A stretch of DNA of 64,000 nucleotides from assembly GCF_017309955.1 (NCBI RefSeq), contig NZ_CP021247.1, positions 2,443,001 through 2,507,000 on the forward strand. The letters are read 5' to 3'. The notes below the pieces were generated by a model. It was not told the DNA's origin. It searched no databases and saw only the letters and a program-made list of their open reading frames with translations. The position numbers and the translations under genes were made by a program. This DNA comes from Novosphingobium sp. KA1 (GTDB lineage Bacteria; Pseudomonadota; Alphaproteobacteria; Sphingomonadales; Sphingomonadaceae). Positions 44,270 to 51,804 of this stretch are shown here, one piece after another; the stretch's first letter is position 1, and the number at the start of each line of letters is the position of its first letter.

Positions 44270-45307
44270 TTAACCCTCCGCCGCACCGCACTGGGTCAGC
44301 ACATCGGCAGCAAGTTCTTCCAGCTTCAATTCGGCATCGACTGCGCCCGCCTCGACCGCAGCCGCGGGCGCCTGCGGTACCGTTGCCGTTCCGCGGTCCT
44401 GAGCGAGGGTACGACAGCCCGCCGCCTGCAGGAGTTTTAGACCTTTTGCGCCATCCTCGCCCATACCGGTCAACACCGCGCCGATGGCGGGAAGTCCGCC
44501 GCGCGCGATAGTGCCGAACAGCAGCGTTGCGGAAGGGCGGAAGCCTTCGACCGGTTCGCGTTCGACCGTCCGCAGTTTCGGCGGGCTACCCGGCTCCACG
44601 ATCACGTGTTTCCCGGGATCGAACGCGATATGGACCGTTCCCGCCACCAGTTCCGCTCCATCGGCGACCGCCTTGATAGTGCATGCACAGTCCTTGTTGG
44701 CACGGGTGATGAACATTTCGGCGAGGGCTGGTTCGGTCTGAAGAATGATGACTGTGGGTGGACAATTCTTTGGATAGTGGCCCAGCACTTCGGTCAAGGC
44801 GTCGACGCCGCCCATGGAGGTACTGAAAGCGGCGATCTTGCCATTGGGCGTATAGCCCTCGGTGCTCTCGGCCTTGGGGCCGCGATGGCGGGGACGGTCG
44901 CGCACGTTCGAGTTGGCTGCGGCGACGACCACCTTGCCCAGTTTGCCGACCGTCTTGGCGAATTGTTCGGGTGTGGCCTTGAGCGGCTTTGGAAAGCACT
45001 CCACCGCCCCCAGTTCGAAGGCCTTGAGTGAGGTTTCCGTGCCGCTTTGAGTAAGGGCGGAAAGCATGACCACCGGCATCGGGTTGGTGCTCATGATCTC
45101 CTCGAGGAATTCGATTCCGCTCATCCCCGGCATCTCGACGTCAAGCGTCACGACATTGGGCTGCAGTTGGGCGATCTGGCTGCGGGCCTCGGCGGCGCTT
45201 GCGGCGGTTCCAACGACGACGACGTTCTTGGATTGCTCAAGGACGTCGCAGAACAACGCGCGCATCGCTGCTGAATCGTCGACCACGAGTACGCGGGCGT
45301 CATGCAT
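44270..45307 (-). CDS. CheB-like protein lacking the catalytic histidine
   Basis: 345 residues with an intact receiver domain (DDSAAMRALF, phosphoacceptor D56 in VTLDVEMPGMSG) and a C-terminal domain that aligns with CheB methylesterase. The esterase triad is broken: the serine is kept (S164 in FSTSMGGVDAL), the aspartate too (D285 in TGMGEDGAKG), but the histidine of the QHMP motif is Thr191 (ILQTEP). The FGMP motif near the end is also lost. It is divergent from the che operon and 199 bp from its first gene. Probably a regulatory or phosphate-sink paralogue; loss of activity is inference. Confidence 0.82.
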   Translation of the reverse strand: MHDARVLVVDDSAAMRALFCDVLEQSKNVVVVGTAASAAEARSQIAQLQPNVVTLDVEMPGMSGIEFLEEIMSTNPMPVVMLSALTQSGTETSLKAFELGAVECFPKPLKATPEQFAKTVGKLGKVVVAAANSNVRDRPRHRGPKAESTEGYTPNGKIAAFSTSMGGVDALTEVLGHYPKNCPPTVIILQTEPALAEMFITRANKDCACTIKAVADGAELVAGTVHIAFDPGKHVIVEPGSPPKLRTVEREPVEGFRPSATLLFGTIARGGLPAIGAVLTGMGEDGAKGLKLLQAAGCRTLAQDRGTATVPQAPAAAVEAGAVDAELKLEELAADVLTQCGAAEG

Positions 45308-45506: not shown

Positions 45507-45791
45507 ATGACAGCGATCAGCGAGGCAAGTGGGGCTGGGATAGTCCTTCCCGCCCGTTGCGACCGGGCCGCGGCCGAAGTGCTGTTGCCGGAGTTCGTGG
45601 CAGCTGTGGGTCTTCAGCCCATCAGCATCGACGGCAGCGGGGTCGAACATGTCGGTCAGGCCGTGCTGCAATTGCTCGTCTCGGCGCGGCGAAGCGGCGG
45701 CGGAGCGGTGATCACTGCGTCCCCGGCTCTGCTCGATGCCGTGCAACTGACGGGCCTGGAGTCCGAACTCTTTGAGGAGGCCGCGCTGTGA
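45507..45791 (+). CDS. STAS-domain protein of the che operon
   Basis: 94 residues from ATG 45507 (GAGGAA eight bases upstream). The order of strand and helix, ending LLDAVQLTGLESELFEEAAL, and the central ISIDGSGVEHVGQAVLQLLVSARRSGGGAVITAS match STAS (anti-sigma-antagonist-like) domains, as found at the head of many alphaproteobacterial che operons. The serine at the typical phosphorylation position (around the SGVEHVG loop) is present. It overlaps the cheA GTG by four bases (GTGA). May modulate CheA or localise the array; function unproven. Confidence 0.78.
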   Translation: MTAISEASGAGIVLPARCDRAAAEVLLPEFVAAVGLQPISIDGSGVEHVGQAVLQLLVSARRSGGGAVITASPALLDAVQLTGLESELFEEAAL

Positions 45792-48085
45792 GTCCCGAAG
45801 AAATCCAGCAGATATTCTTCGCTGAGTGCGAAGAGTCGCTGGCTGCCGCCGAAGCGGGGCTCGCGGCGTGCAAGGCGGGTACTCACGATTCGGATACCGT
45901 GAACGCGGTGTTTCGCGGGGTTCATTCGATCAAGGGTGGTGCCGGCGCTTTCGGTTTTGGCGCGCTTCAGGCTTATACTCATACATTCGAGACGCTGCTG
46001 TCCGACGTGCGTGAGGGCCTGGTGCCGATCGACCCGAAACTCGTCGATCTCCTGCTGCGTGCGCTCGACACCCTGGCTGATCACGTCGAGGCCGCACGCG
46101 AGGGCGGGGATGCACCTGCCGATGCGGCGCTGATCGCCGAGATGGAAGGGGCGATGGCGGCCAATGTTGCGGGCGCGGCGCATGCTGCTGAATCCGATCG
46201 CGAGCCTGACCCCGCTGTGACGAGTTCTTCCGGCGGTGATGATGATTTCGGTATAGATCTCGATTCGCTGCTCGACGATCTGACCGGTGGATTCGATGCT
46301 CCCGCCAGTGCGACAACTGCAGACGGCGCGGTCGAACCTGCCAGTTGGCATGTCCAGGTGCGCCCGCGAGCCGGAGCCATGCGCAACGGAAGCGAACCGC
46401 TGCTCATGCTGCGTGAAGTCGCATCACTCGGCGGGCGTGTGGCTGCCTGCGACGTTTCGCAAGTGCCGCCGCTCGATAGTCTCGACATTGCCGAGGGATA
46501 TCTGGCCTGGACTTTTGCGATGCCCACCGAAGTGAGCGAAGATGCAGTGCGCGACATCTTCGACTTCATCGGTGATGACTGCGCGGTGGTGTTCGGCGAT
46601 GACTCGGCCGAAGACGCTGTAGCTTCGACCGAACTGGATCCGACCACCATTTCAGCGCAAGTCGGCCCGGCCGTGACCGAGGCTGCGGATGGCTTGCCGG
46701 ACGGGACAGGAAGGGCATCAGAAGCTGAGCCGGTTTCCAGCCGACCTGTTCCTGTTCCGCCGCCTATGCCAACGCCGGTCGCGGCGGCAGTTTCGCCGCC
46801 AGCCGCTGAACCGGCGGCAACTGCTGCAGCGACCGCTTCCGCGGCTCCTGCTGGGGGAACTGCTCCGGTATCCGGGGCAGGTCAATCGATCCGCATCGAC
46901 CTGTTCAAACTTGATCGGCTGATCGATCTGGTTGGCGAACTGGTAATCGCCCAAGCCATGCTGGTTCAGCGCCTTGAAGGGGTGACGATCAATGCCAGCG
47001 AGGAACTTTCACTGCTCGAGAGCTTGACGCGCGACATCCAGGAAAGCGCGATGTCGATCCGAGCCCAGCCGATTGGGAGCGTATTCAGCCGTGTGCCTCG
47101 CATTTTACGGGATCTCGCGGCTTCGACGGGCAAGCATGTAAAGCTGGATGTTTTCGGCGAAACCACGGAACTCGACAAGACGGTGATCGAGCGGCTCGGT
47201 GAGCCGTTGACCCACCTCATCCGCAACGCGGTCGATCACGGCATCGAGACTGCCGAAGCGCGCATCGCCGCGGGCAAGTCACCGGAGGGTACGCTGACCC
47301 TTTCGGCCGAACACCGTGCCGGCCGCATCCTCATTTCGATTGCCGACGATGGCGCCGGGATCAACCGCGAGCGGGTTCTGGCCAAGGCGATCGAGAAGGG
47401 CATCGTCAGTGCCGATGCACAGCTTTCCGCCGAAGAGATTGACAACCTGATCTTCGCGCCAGGGTTCTCCACTGCGCAGGTTGTCTCGAATATCTCCGGG
47501 CGCGGGGTCGGCATGGATGTCGTGCGTCAGAACGTGAAGGATCTGGGCGGGCGTATCACTATCGAAAGCAATCCCGGCAAGGGGACGGCTTTTATCCTGA
47601 CGCTGCCGCTTACGCTGGCAATTTCCGATGGCATGATAGTCAATGTCTGCGACCAGACGCTGGTGGTCCCGCTTGCACATGTGGTGGAGAGCTTGCGGCC
47701 CTCGCCGGATGATGTGCAGGGCTTGGGATCGAGCCAGGCGATGCTCAACGTGCGTGGCCGTTTCATTCCGGTCATTTCCCTGCGTGAGGCACTTGGTGCC
47801 CAGATGGGTTCGGAGGATAGGCTTGCCGGGCATCCAGAGCAGGGGGTGCTCATCGTTGTCGATACCGAAAGCGCGGGCCAGGCAGCCTTGCTGGTCGATG
47901 ATATCCAGGACCAGCGCCAGTTCGTTATCAAAAGTCTCGCCACTAATTTTCGTCCCGTGGAAGGCGTGGCGGGGGCGACCATCCTCGGCGATGGCCGGGT
48001 GGCGCTGATTGTCGATGTCGACGGTCTGGTCGCCTGCGCTCTGCCGGCCCAGGATCGCGCCGGTCATGAGAGGCAGGTCGCATGA
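45788..48085 (+). CDS. cheA: chemotaxis histidine kinase CheA
   Basis: 765 residues from GTG 45788. Domains: P1 Hpt with the phosphorylated H46 (VFRGVHSIKGGAGAFG); an acidic and Ala/Pro-rich linker region (about 120-365) that may include a divergent P2; P3 dimerisation (KLDRLIDLVGELVIAQAML); P4 ATPase with HLIRNAVDHGIE, ADDGAGINRERV and GRGVGMDVV; P5 CheW-like domain with VVPLAHVVESLRP. It phosphorylates CheY and CheB. Overlaps the cheR start by four bases. A long low-complexity linker is the only oddity. Confidence 0.96.
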   Translation: MSPEEIQQIFFAECEESLAAAEAGLAACKAGTHDSDTVNAVFRGVHSIKGGAGAFGFGALQAYTHTFETLLSDVREGLVPIDPKLVDLLLRALDTLADHVEAAREGGDAPADAALIAEMEGAMAANVAGAAHAAESDREPDPAVTSSSGGDDDFGIDLDSLLDDLTGGFDAPASATTADGAVEPASWHVQVRPRAGAMRNGSEPLLMLREVASLGGRVAACDVSQVPPLDSLDIAEGYLAWTFAMPTEVSEDAVRDIFDFIGDDCAVVFGDDSAEDAVASTELDPTTISAQVGPAVTEAADGLPDGTGRASEAEPVSSRPVPVPPPMPTPVAAAVSPPAAEPAATAAATASAAPAGGTAPVSGAGQSIRIDLFKLDRLIDLVGELVIAQAMLVQRLEGVTINASEELSLLESLTRDIQESAMSIRAQPIGSVFSRVPRILRDLAASTGKHVKLDVFGETTELDKTVIERLGEPLTHLIRNAVDHGIETAEARIAAGKSPEGTLTLSAEHRAGRILISIADDGAGINRERVLAKAIEKGIVSADAQLSAEEIDNLIFAPGFSTAQVVSNISGRGVGMDVVRQNVKDLGGRITIESNPGKGTAFILTLPLTLAISDGMIVNVCDQTLVVPLAHVVESLRPSPDDVQGLGSSQAMLNVRGRFIPVISLREALGAQMGSEDRLAGHPEQGVLIVVDTESAGQAALLVDDIQDQRQFVIKSLATNFRPVEGVAGATILGDGRVALIVDVDGLVACALPAQDRAGHERQVA

Positions 48086-48951
48086 ACGCTATGGCAACGG
48101 CGACCGAACAGGTCCCCGGGGTCAGCCCGGACATCTATGGGGACGCCGATTTCGCGGCGATCGCCAAGATTGTCTATGATGCGGTGGGCATCGTGCTCTC
48201 GCAGCGCAAGTCGATGTTGGTCTATTCGCGTCTTGCTCCCCTGGTGCGCGAGACGGGCGCGATCAGCTTTGCGCGTTATGTCGAAATGATGCGCGCAGAC
48301 AGCACCGAGATGGGGCGTGCGGTGGCCGCGCTGACCACCAATCACACCTTCTTCTATCGTGAAGCGCACCACTTCGAGCATCTTGCCGAGCATGTCCGGC
48401 CCCATGCGATCGAATGCTTGCGCGCAGGGCAGCCGGTGCGTCTATGGTCGGCGGGATGTTCGAGCGGCGAGGAAGTGTGGTCAATCGTGATGACCATGCT
48501 GGGCAGCGACCGGAGTGCTGGCCTTGACATGGCCCGGCGTGATTTCGTGCTGCTGGCGAGCGACATCGCTCCTCACGCGCTGGCAAAGGCCGAGGCGGCG
48601 ACGTATGCGGCGGGGGATCTCGACCCGGTGCCGGCCGCGCTGCGGTCGGCATGGAGTGCATCGAGCGGAGGGCAGGTCCGCATCGCCGATGCCGCGCGTG
48701 CATTGGTGCGGTTCCGGACACTCAACCTGCAAGGCGAGTGGCCGATGAAGGGGCGCTTTGATGCGATCTTCTGCCGCAACGTGATGATCTACTTCGACAA
48801 TGAAACCAAGGAGCGGCTTGTTGCCCGCTATGCCCAGGCCCTGCAGCCGGGAGGCTTTCTCTATATTGGCCATTCCGAGCGCGTCACCGGTCCGGCAACG
48901 CAGGTGCTTAGGCTGGTCGGTCCAACCATCTACCAGAGGAGCGCGGCGTGA
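48082..48951 (+). CDS. cheR: chemoreceptor methyltransferase CheR
   Basis: 289 residues; ATG 48082 overlaps the cheA stop. N-terminal all-helical domain and C-terminal SAM-dependent methyltransferase with LWSAGCSSGEEVWSIVM (SAM site), LLASDIAPHALAKAEAATY and FDAIFCRNVMIYFDNETKERL, and the late LYIGHSERV. Adds methyl groups to glutamates of chemoreceptors. It overlaps the next gene's GTG by four bases, so translation is coupled through the operon. Confidence 0.96.
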   Translation: MNAMATATEQVPGVSPDIYGDADFAAIAKIVYDAVGIVLSQRKSMLVYSRLAPLVRETGAISFARYVEMMRADSTEMGRAVAALTTNHTFFYREAHHFEHLAEHVRPHAIECLRAGQPVRLWSAGCSSGEEVWSIVMTMLGSDRSAGLDMARRDFVLLASDIAPHALAKAEAATYAAGDLDPVPAALRSAWSASSGGQVRIADAARALVRFRTLNLQGEWPMKGRFDAIFCRNVMIYFDNETKERLVARYAQALQPGGFLYIGHSERVTGPATQVLRLVGPTIYQRSAA

Positions 48952-50021
48952 GCATCAGGGTTCTCATCGTCGACGATTCGCCGACCATGCGGGCGATCCT
49001 GATGTCGAGGCTGCGCGAGCAGGGCGACATCGAGGTTGTCGGCACCGCTTCTGATGCGGCCGAGGGGAGGGCTCTTATCAAGCAGCTCGATCCCGACGTG
49101 GTGACGCTCGACATCGAGATGCCAGGCATGAACGGGCTCGACTTTCTCGAAAAGATCATGGCCTTGCGTCCGACCCCGGTGATCGTGGTGTCGGGCGCCA
49201 CCCAGGACGGTAACGAGGTGACTGCCCGTGCACTCGCGCTCGGGGCAGTCAATTGTTATGCGAAGTATGATCCCGGCGGCAAGCTGGCGTTGCAGGACGG
49301 CGGGGAACTGGCGGATCTAATCCGCGATGCGGCGCAAGTGCGTTTCGATGCTCGAATCGAATCGAGGCCGGAGCAGCGGCCGCGGGATGTCCGAGTTGGC
49401 GCTGCTACCATGGTAGCCGCTGAAAGTCGGCTCTCGATCCGGCGCGAAACCCGGTTGATCGCGATCGGCTCCTCGACAGGCGGTGTGGAGGCGTTGCAGG
49501 TCGTGCTGGGAGGCTTCCCGATCGATTGTCCGCCGACCGTGATCGTCCAGCACGTCAACCCGCGCTTTGCTCCGGCTATTGCCCGGACGCTCGATCTGGC
49601 CTGTCCGGCGCACGTCCAGGCTGCCGACATGGATACGCCCTTGTTGCCTGGAAATGTCTATCTTGCAGCCGCCGCCAGTTGCCATTTGACTGTGAAGCTC
49701 GATCGGGACGGAAGCACGCTGCTGGGGAAAATGCGGCGCGGCGAACCGATCAGCGGTCATGTCCCGAGCGTCGATGCCCTGTTCGCCTCGGTGGCACAGG
49801 TCGTAGGGGCTGAGGCGGTCGGCATTCTTCTTACCGGTATGGGACAGGACGGTGCGCGGGGGTTGCTGGCCATGCGTCAGGCCGGCGCGCATACGATTGC
49901 GCAGGATGAACGCACTTGCACGGTGTTCGGGATGCCGCGCGTGGCAATTTCGCTCGGTGCGGCAAATGTAGTGGCCCCGGTCGACCGGATTGCCGGCCAC
50001 GCCCTCAACAAGGCGGCATGA
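48948..50021 (+). CDS. cheB: protein-glutamate methylesterase CheB
   Basis: 357 residues from GTG 48948. Receiver domain with phosphoacceptor D55 (VTLDIEMPGMNG) and methylesterase domain with intact catalytic residues: S176 in IGSSTGG, H202 in VQHVNPRF, D301 in TGMGQDGARG. The FGMPRVA segment is present. It removes methyl groups from chemoreceptors when phosphorylated by CheA. It is the functional counterpart of the degenerate CheB-like gene at 44270-45307, which it flanks across the operon. Confidence 0.95.
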   Translation: MSIRVLIVDDSPTMRAILMSRLREQGDIEVVGTASDAAEGRALIKQLDPDVVTLDIEMPGMNGLDFLEKIMALRPTPVIVVSGATQDGNEVTARALALGAVNCYAKYDPGGKLALQDGGELADLIRDAAQVRFDARIESRPEQRPRDVRVGAATMVAAESRLSIRRETRLIAIGSSTGGVEALQVVLGGFPIDCPPTVIVQHVNPRFAPAIARTLDLACPAHVQAADMDTPLLPGNVYLAAAASCHLTVKLDRDGSTLLGKMRRGEPISGHVPSVDALFASVAQVVGAEAVGILLTGMGQDGARGLLAMRQAGAHTIAQDERTCTVFGMPRVAISLGAANVVAPVDRIAGHALNKAA

Positions 50022-50025
50022 CAAG

Positions 50026-50568
50026 ATGGCATCTGCAAATTCACCCGCGAGTACGCACCTTACGGTGCTGCAGGGGCAGTTCAGGGTCAGTGCGGGCCCC
50101 AAGGTGGAACTCAGTACGGTCTTGGGCTCGTGCGTTGCGACGTGCCTCTATGATCCGGTGATCGAACTGGGCGGCATGAACCATTTTCTGCTTTCCGAGC
50201 CGCCCGCTACGCACGCGCGGGGGGAGGTCGATGTCCACTATGGGGTTTACCTCATGGAGATGCTGATCAACGAGATGCTCGCCTATGGTGCCCGCAAGGA
50301 GCGGCTCAGAGCCCATCTGTACGGCGGCGCGAACATCCGAGCGGGTATGCAACGGATTGGCACGGCCAATGCTGAATTCGCGCGGGGTTTCCTGGTCCGA
50401 GAGCGCATCGAGCTAATGCGTGAGGATCTCGGCGGTACTTGTGCGCGCCGTGTCGATTTTCGACCGGCATCCGGTCTCGTGCGCTGCCGTACCGTTGCCG
50501 AGGCTCCGGAAGTGGCTGTCCAGCCGGTGGTCCGGCGGGAACCGCGCGGCGAAGTCGAACTGTTTTAA
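50026..50568 (+). CDS. cheD: chemoreceptor glutamine deamidase CheD
   Basis: 180 residues from ATG 50026, four bases after the cheB stop. The catalytic cysteine (C36) lies in STVLGSCVATCLYDP and the histidine (H53) in GGMNHFLLSEPP, both diagnostic. HARGEVDVHYGVYLMEMLINEM and RAHLYGGANI follow the family pattern. CheD deamidates receptor glutamines and in several species also binds CheC. No CheC gene is seen here, which would leave CheD to the receptors. Confidence 0.92.
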   Translation: MASANSPASTHLTVLQGQFRVSAGPKVELSTVLGSCVATCLYDPVIELGGMNHFLLSEPPATHARGEVDVHYGVYLMEMLINEMLAYGARKERLRAHLYGGANIRAGMQRIGTANAEFARGFLVRERIELMREDLGGTCARRVDFRPASGLVRCRTVAEAPEVAVQPVVRREPRGEVELF

Positions 50569-50602: not shown

Positions 50603-50974
50603 ATGTCCAAGACCACCCGAGTCCTGACCGTTGACGATAGCGCATCCATGCGGGCGCTGCTCAATCATGCGTTGTCGAACAACGGCTTCGACGTGTCGCA
50701 GGCCGACGATGGCGTTTCTGCGCTGGAATGGCTGGCGCTGAACGAAGTCGATGTCGTCATAACTGACATCAATATGCCGCGCCTCGATGGCTTTGGCCTG
50801 ATCGAGCAGGTCCGTGGAGGCACCCGACATCGCGATCGCCCCATCCTGGTACTGACAACCGAGAGTTCGGACGAGAAGAAGGCGCGTGCGCGAGCAGCCG
50901 GCGCGACCGGTTGGATCGTCAAGCCTTTCGACACCGACAAGCTCGTCGCGGCGGTCCGCCGCGTCGCCCACTGA
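50603..50974 (+). CDS. cheY: chemotaxis response regulator CheY
   Basis: 123 residues from ATG 50603 with GAGGA five bases upstream. Acidic pocket TVDDSASM, phosphoacceptor D55 in VVITDINMPRLDG, switch threonine in VLTTESSDE, and K108 in IVKPFD are all present. It is a stand-alone receiver, the diffusible signal to the flagellar switch, positioned between cheD and cheW. Expected to be phosphorylated by CheA. A longer upstream start is incompatible with the cheD frame. Confidence 0.94.
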   Translation: MSKTTRVLTVDDSASMRALLNHALSNNGFDVSQADDGVSALEWLALNEVDVVITDINMPRLDGFGLIEQVRGGTRHRDRPILVLTTESSDEKKARARAAGATGWIVKPFDTDKLVAAVRRVAH

Positions 50975-50988
50975 AGGAGGCCTCGGTT

Positions 50989-51429
50989 ATGCACCGCGAA
51001 CTCATCACCTTCGAAGTCGCCGGCCAGATCTTCGCGCTCGACATCATGGCGATCCGCGAGATCCGCGCCTGGACCCCGGTAACGCCGATGCCGCGTGTCC
51101 CGCATTACGTGGCAGGCGTGGTCAACTTGCGCGGTACGGTATTGCCGGTGATCGATCTTGCTGCCCGGCTGGGCTGGACGCCGACCGAGGCCACGCCGCG
51201 CCACGCCATCATTGTCTGTCAGGTCAATGGGCAGTCGCAGGGTCTGATCGTGGATTCGGTGTCGGACATCGTCGCGCTTCATTCCGAAACCTTGCAGGCG
51301 CCGCCCAGTGCCGGACAGGACGGGGTGATCCCATTTCTCGAGGGGCTGGTGGCGATAGACGAGCACATGGTCATGGTGCTTGATCTCCAGACGCTGGGGA
51401 CATCCGGGGATGCGTTGGCGGCGGCCTGA
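50989..51429 (+). CDS. cheW: chemotaxis coupling protein CheW
   Basis: 146 residues from ATG 50989, nine bases after GAAGGAGG. The SH3-like double barrel is shown by LITFEVAGQIFALDIMAIREIRAWTPVTPMP, HYVAGVVNLRGTVLPVIDLAARLG and the ligand-facing GLIVDSVSDIV. Links chemoreceptors to CheA. It follows cheY by 14 bases and precedes the last gene of the operon by three. The C-terminal LQTLGTSGDALAAA is poorly conserved. Confidence 0.95.
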   Translation: MHRELITFEVAGQIFALDIMAIREIRAWTPVTPMPRVPHYVAGVVNLRGTVLPVIDLAARLGWTPTEATPRHAIIVCQVNGQSQGLIVDSVSDIVALHSETLQAPPSAGQDGVIPFLEGLVAIDEHMVMVLDLQTLGTSGDALAAA

Positions 51430-51432
51430 GCC

Positions 51433-51804
51433 ATGATCCACGAATCGCGCTTTCTGGCCCCGAGGCTGCTTGAACCCCGATTTCTGGCTATGGCCGAAGT
51501 CTTGACCGAGCTTGCCGGCGAGATCGAGGCCCTGGGCGAAGTATTGTGTCGGGACGAGGGTTTCGCTGCAGGGCACATTCGCGAGCTTCAGGCGATCGAT
51601 CTGATTTCCCAGAAGCAGCGTGCGTTGTCGGCCATTCTCAGTGCAGGGTTCAGTGCGACAGAGATGCGCCGCATCAACCTGGAGGCGATCAACCTGCGCT
51701 TCCGTCATTTTCTCGACGACAGCGAAACACTCTGCGAGGTACCGCTTGATTCTCCGCCGGCCAACGGAAACGGCGATGGTGGACCGCTCGACTTGTGGGA
51801 TTGA
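51433..51804 (+). CDS. small terminal che-operon protein with a CheZ-like DxxxQ motif
   Basis: 123 residues, almost entirely helical by sequence; the segment IRELQAIDLISQKQRALSAIL contains DLISQ (D56-Q60), which matches in spacing and context the catalytic DLTGQ of E. coli CheZ (D143/Q147), the CheY-P phosphatase. It ends in an acidic/aromatic tail, GGPLDLWD, that could act like a CheY-binding C-terminus. Small proteins at the end of the che operon in alphaproteobacteria have been described as CheT with this motif (from memory). No classical CheZ is seen. The function is inference, but the position and motif are seen directly. Confidence 0.62.
   Translation: MIHESRFLAPRLLEPRFLAMAEVLTELAGEIEALGEVLCRDEGFAAGHIRELQAIDLISQKQRALSAILSAGFSATEMRRINLEAINLRFRHFLDDSETLCEVPLDSPPANGNGDGGPLDLWD

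Follow-up and report, generated by a model that had tools for sequence, protein, structure and literature searches.

A probable sphingomonad CheT closes a chemotaxis operon of Novosphingobium sp. KA1

The last gene of a chemotaxis operon in Novosphingobium sp. KA1, here called P0001, probably encodes a sphingomonad CheT. By analogy with the rhizobial protein of that name, its product would be small and mainly helical, would bind phosphorylated CheY (CheY~P) and speed its dephosphorylation, and would take the place of CheZ in the operon, a reading to which we give a probability of roughly three in four. We infer the fold, the binding, the catalysis and the residue roles alike; the protein would probably serve to end the swimming signal in a genome with no CheZ above the search cut-off.

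The window, that is, the whole analysed stretch of 64,000 nucleotides (contig NZ_CP021247.1, positions 2,443,001 to 2,507,000, of the genome labelled G000), holds the operon in the order STAS-like gene, cheA, cheR, cheB, cheD, cheY, cheW, P0001 (Table 1). CheY and CheW were called by Pfam, CheA and CheD by genome searches, and CheR and CheB by reading together with the annotated operons L130 and L132. The ATG of P0001 lies 3 bases past the cheW stop, a start that agrees with the N-termini of close orthologues. At its phosphorylated Asp, its Thr and its Lys, the window CheY reads TDINMP, LTTES and VKPF, respectively. No CheZ- or CheC-like gene is present among the che operon genes of the window; in the genome searches, the best CheZ match (PF04344) had an E value of 0.22, below the cut-off, and CheC (PF04509) and CheX (PF13690) gave 0 matches at E 1. 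This bears out the sequence-only reading, which had described an operon with neither CheZ nor CheC. P0001 has no Pfam family at E 10, an NCBIfam scan was also empty, and a PDB profile search returned nothing better than E 0.25. Next comes a methyltransferase-like gene, putatively of the DUF938 family; a relative of it stands downstream at 8/8 distinct places of the closest orthologues, and the stretches fetched for the other 41 places showed none.

Table 1. P0001, its operon and neighbouring features, in window positions
Feature	Position	Strand	Basis
cheT-like gene P0001, 123 aa, closes che operon	51433..51804	+	ORF and orthologue N-termini
LQAIDLISQ motif, residues 52-60	51586..51612	+	alignment of 43 relatives
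Q53 codon	51589-51591	+	
D56 codon	51598-51600	+	
Q60 codon	51610-51612	+	
Acidic/aromatic C-terminal tail GGPLDLWD	51778..51801	+	closest orthologues end LW[DE]
cheW	50989..51429	+	PF01584, E 2.1e-40
cheY, single receiver domain, likely substrate	50603..50974	+	PF00072, E 1.5e-27
cheD	50026..50568	+	PF03975, E 2.7e-23 at G000:C1:2493209-2493493
cheB, triad Ser, His and Asp all present	48948..50021	+	reading and triad check
cheR	48082..48951	+	reading; annotated CheR at the equivalent operon place in L130 and L132
cheA	45788..48085	+	PF02895, E 8.5e-16 at G000:C1:2489883-2490059
Putative STAS-like gene, operon head	45507..45791	+	reading; annotated STAS there in L130 and L132
CheB2, receiver and CheB domain, without catalytic His	44270..45307	-	PF00072, PF01339, triad check
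Methyltransferase-like gene, next after P0001	51829-52443	+	reading

The identification rests on profile comparisons, which show P0001 to be a homologue of the Sinorhizobium meliloti protein whose gene occupies the CheT place. In strain Ak57 the gene order is cheA, cheW, cheR, cheB, response regulator, cheD, hypothetical protein, fliF, and CheT was assigned by this position, after cheD and before fliF. The CheT-place protein of Sinorhizobium sp. K101, which is followed by a gene for FliF (Pfam), was matched by the 43-sequence profile of the P0001 family with an E value of 3.5e-8 for 1000 sequences. In a direct BLASTP comparison of P0001 with the K101 protein, 21/47 residues are identical (45%; E 6e-6 for this single comparison), and D56 and Q60 of P0001 align with D57 and Q61 of the Sinorhizobium protein. 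Scores from hhalign were 50.6 against six CheT-like proteins (A3; maximum of 60 column shuffles 16.5) and 40.9, with 27% identity over 77 profile columns, against a pair made up of the S. meliloti protein, chosen by gene position, and a Shinella protein found with a CheT-place query (A4; maximum of 60 column shuffles 17.3). The pair is the fairer test, because the set of six contains members found with the 43-sequence alignment (A2). With the K101 protein as query against 289 genomes of the class, the top match lies in a che operon of G539 (E 3.7e-5); the second-best is a member of the window gene's family in G063, at an E value of 0.008 per genome that is not significant alone.

S. meliloti CheT (atu0522 in Agrobacterium fabrum) resembles P0001 in being small, in lying in a che operon and in carrying LQxxDxxxQ. 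The two differ in position: CheT is placed between cheD and fliF, whereas P0001 comes after cheW and before the methyltransferase-like gene. P0001 does not follow cheD directly, a position that CheT is not known to need, but a paralogue in its own genome does. This paralogue belongs to a second che operon (L069, G000:C1:754000-770000) in the order CheY, CheA, CheW, CheR, CheB, CheY, CheD, family member, with a MotB-like gene after it; this is the S. meliloti order, with the family member at the CheT place. Since position varies inside a homologous family, the place of P0001 does not disqualify it. Across this genome, 5 CheA-type matches were found.

The consulted part of PMC12654446 describes S. 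meliloti CheT as a DXXXQ protein that is predicted to be CheZ-like and enhances the dephosphorylation of one CheY, and names CheT in S. medicae, R. leguminosarum, C. crescentus and Hoeflea, to which the original paper may add more. CheT is also treated in a review (PMC13401364, consulted in part), and rhizobia of the S. meliloti type are reported to be without CheZ in the portion of PMC8429497 used here. Among the literature matches listed, judged by title and the start of the abstract, there was no sphingomonad CheT. On an Acetobacter pasteurianus plasmid, a hypothetical gene directly after cheD (L135:4577-4975) has LQNLDSATQ and the terminus VEMF, and is possibly another CheT, though unmatched by the profile. 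NZ_CP104131.1 (L133), a Sinorhizobium record of 3.5 Mb classed as a plasmid, contains the main che-fli operon; by the CheT-place match, so do S. meliloti CP090106.1 (pSymB, 3.7 Mb) and NZ_CP021802.1. Plasmid searches with the G462 and G539 proteins gave no match, and no relative of P0001 was found in viral contigs.

The residues on which catalysis would depend are the best conserved of the family. The sequence-only reading had pointed to D56 and Q60 in QAIDLISQKQR, and both read as claimed, residues 51-60 being ELQAIDLISQ. A single DxxxQ is weak evidence, because 18% of shuffled P0001 sequences contain one; the motif goes beyond chance because it is invariant in 43/43 divergent relatives. In the alignment of these relatives, from which near-identical members and all PilZ fusions were excluded, no column is invariant except those of Q53, D56 and Q60 (25% mean column identity, 84 well-occupied columns); an earlier alignment of 21 sequences had eight invariant columns, with the same three among them. 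The conservation of D and Q on which the earlier proposal hung thus holds in every stand-alone relative, and QxxDxxxQ is present in 19/20 of the PilZ-fused forms described below. The P0001 search had matched 21/61 genomes of relatives, including a chance match in G060, a TPR-like ORF (L023) that was set aside. The spacing of Q53, D56 and Q60 is i, i+3, i+7, which would put all three on one helix face if the helix at 49-69 is right; it comes from a single-sequence AlphaFold2 model of low confidence (pLDDT 54.9, pTM 0.30), with helices at 15-40, 49-69 and 75-100.

In CheZ, a glutamine orients the water molecule and an aspartate contacts the lysine of CheY. The mechanism proposed for P0001 builds on that of CheZ and on the reported activity of CheT. 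P0001 would dock on CheY~P so that a helix bearing D56 and Q60 on the same side enters the CheY active site; Q60 would sit by the phosphoryl group and orient a water, D56 would contact the conserved CheY lysine, and the hydrolysis of CheY~P would be accelerated. The C-terminal tail, suggested earlier to bind CheY, may contribute to this docking. Its sequence is as described, and an LW[DE] terminus is found in 8/8 closest orthologues, P0001 included. The six CheT-like proteins end in F or W, 5/6 of them having an acidic residue within the final four positions, and the ten CheZ that were read also finish with acidic/aromatic tails. A family-wide need for the tail did not hold up, since most of the other sphingomonad relatives compared have no acidic/aromatic tail.

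Family members are closely tied to chemotaxis genes. At 52/54 family loci, or 47/49 distinct places once 5 duplicate fetches are removed, the family ORF has a che gene upstream of it in the same orientation. In 20 longer regions, the family ORF follows CheW (2), CheB2 (7), CheD (3), CheB (1) or CheY (1), stands apart from any che gene (2) or is fused to PilZ (4). In 37/45 rows, CheA is found at a distance of 4.5-5.7 kb upstream, in the same orientation; the rows were drawn from 97 module matches and restricted to the 39 genomes in which the module (the conserved region of the family) and a strong CheA occur together; a second G204 row, with no listed CheA nearby, was omitted, and including it gives 37/46. 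A pair of CheY and CheT-like genes stands at L078:6399-7152 with no other che gene recognised in the 13-kb stretch, and L055 and L058 hold similar pairs, CheY being the only che gene recognised in these short stretches. CheB2 copies were compared from the window, L070-L074, L077, L084 and L130; in L130, CheB2 directly precedes the CheT-like gene.

Within the order Sphingomonadales, the module was found in 84/297 genomes (18/77 genera), all listed under the family of the window's genome; these counts are lower bounds, because up to 17 candidates were scored per genome. CheZ (PF04344) was above the cut-off in 60 of the 297 genomes searched. The PF04344 matches listed fall in 59 genomes outside the window's family and 10 inside it, where only G084 is strong (E 3.1e-10; by the listing, the one genome of this family with CheZ above the cut-off) and the others range from 0.007 to 0.04. 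CheA was found in 258 Sphingomonadales genomes, 203 of them within the window's family. With strong CheA defined as E up to 1e-11, a threshold chosen after inspection of the list, 39/43 family genomes have the module; the remaining four comprise G084, a genome with CheZ, and G155, G275 and G325, in which neither module nor CheZ was found. The module was present in 44/160 family genomes with only weaker CheA matches: either many CheA systems run without it, or the search overlooked it.

Across the class, the 43-sequence profile matched 12/289 alphaproteobacterial genomes at E 0.01, and in 5/12 (G000, G063, G360, G462 and G459) the matched gene has che genes around it. The matches in G452, G469 and G493 were taken as chance for want of a che neighbour within the fetched stretch, and those in G384, G512, G592 and G613 on weak score and ORF length only. 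Of 24 CheD loci, drawn from 22 genomes of the class, 3 (L120, L124 and L127) had a recognisable family gene as the immediate neighbour of CheD, and in a fourth, the window operon (L122), the family gene lies further on; CheD thus does not generally come with the module.

Two competing explanations would deny P0001 any kinship with CheT. A chance motif in an unrelated small protein draws on the frequency of DxxxQ in shuffled sequences; set against the invariance among relatives and the che linkage of the distinct places, it is the least credible explanation of all. A true CheZ shortened past recognition is also highly improbable. CheZ and P0001 share DxxxQ and a presumed job, and P0001 and its closest orthologues also end, like CheZ, in acidic and aromatic residues, but the ten CheZ read are 213-383 aa long, against 123 aa, and the defining family PF04344 has no match in P0001 and is not among the ten families matched by any of 21 P0001-family members. 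Compared by hhalign with a profile of eight CheZ of the order (A5, 8 of the 10 read), the score was 13.2, which is not above the null (shuffled maximum 19.9, reversed alignment 16.7), as against the 40.9 and 50.6 obtained with CheT. An AXXFQ motif, which precedes DXXXQ in CheZ according to the consulted part of PMC7750401, is absent from P0001, where the residue preceding D56 is I. CheC and CheX (PF04509, PF13690) likewise gave no family match to P0001 in the Pfam scan at E 10. A distant relationship to both CheZ and CheT had been suspected from the DNA; the CheT half is upheld (40.9 against 17.3 for shuffled columns), and the CheZ half is not, its score being within the null. P0001 could work like CheZ without being CheZ.

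The other two alternatives accept the family and change its task. The phosphatase might act mainly on the receiver of CheB or CheB2 rather than on CheY, the pair forming a phosphate sink with a drain. CheB2 is a probable pseudo-methylesterase by its sequence, the catalytic Ser or His being lost in 9/9 copies compared, and perhaps a phosphate sink or adaptor; the receiver domain of the window copy matches Pfam, and CheB2 is the gene immediately before the family member in 7/20 regions and in S. parapaucimobilis. The nearest upstream che gene is mostly CheW or CheD, however, with CheY close by; the stretches read for L055 and L058 show CheY as the sole upstream che gene; and the window CheB2 lies at the opposite end of the operon on the opposite strand, all of which makes this target unlikely. 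Equally doubtful is a non-catalytic adaptor for CheY, CheR or CheD, in which Q53, D56 and Q60 are a binding surface only. P0001 is small, most family members are tail-less, and S. meliloti CheT is reported in complex with CheR (PMC12654446, consulted in part); yet the invariant set includes D and Q at catalytic spacing, and the same part of that source reports that CheT enhances CheY dephosphorylation.

The module also occurs in a second form. In 20 ORFs of related genomes, from 24 regions read, a PilZ-type domain is followed by the CheT module (L079-L082, L150-L162, L164, L165 and L167); P0001 itself is without PilZ. These fusions first appeared as weak module matches and proved to be longer ORFs. 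The other four regions comprise L166 and L168, with a family ORF without PilZ, L169, with nothing, and L163, a cysteine-desulfurase-like ORF rejected as a chance match. The Pfam PilZ domain (PF07238), that of c-di-GMP proteins, was detected in 19/20 fusions, and the c-di-GMP motif RxxxR...[DN]xSxxG in 18/20. The one departure from QxxDxxxQ is L167, in which E replaces D and T replaces the first Q, with the last Q kept. The C-terminal part of the fusions scored 77.7 against the P0001 family (maximum of 60 shuffles 15.4) and 37 against the rhizobial CheT pair, the latter a score without a shuffled control; the PilZ part scored 11.2 against the P0001 family, which is no match. The L080 fusion adjoins flagellin, the L082 fusion lies ~1.2 kb from a sigma-54 activator, and the neighbours of the L079 fusion read as housekeeping genes. 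In 5/5 fusion genomes examined there is a che cluster with CheA, CheW, CheY, CheB and CheR, and no stand-alone module was seen within the 16-kb stretch of these five clusters.

A fusion of PilZ with CheT, CheZ or a CheY-P phosphatase was not described in the literature among the matches listed, judged by title and the start of the abstract, and the PilZ-CheT module fusions are new here. Control of the fusions by c-di-GMP is a prediction. Tentatively, the CheT module could be a portable CheY~P phosphatase that replaces CheZ in Sphingomonadaceae-type genomes and whose PilZ form, controlled by c-di-GMP, couples the biofilm messenger directly to the termination of the chemotaxis signal.

As a probable CheT, P0001 offers an answer to how CheY~P is shut off in sphingomonads without CheZ. 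LQxxDxxxQ is now available as a motif for the CheT-type family, whose range is extended beyond the alphaproteobacteria named in the consulted part of PMC12654446, and the PilZ fusions point to a link between c-di-GMP and chemotaxis within one protein.
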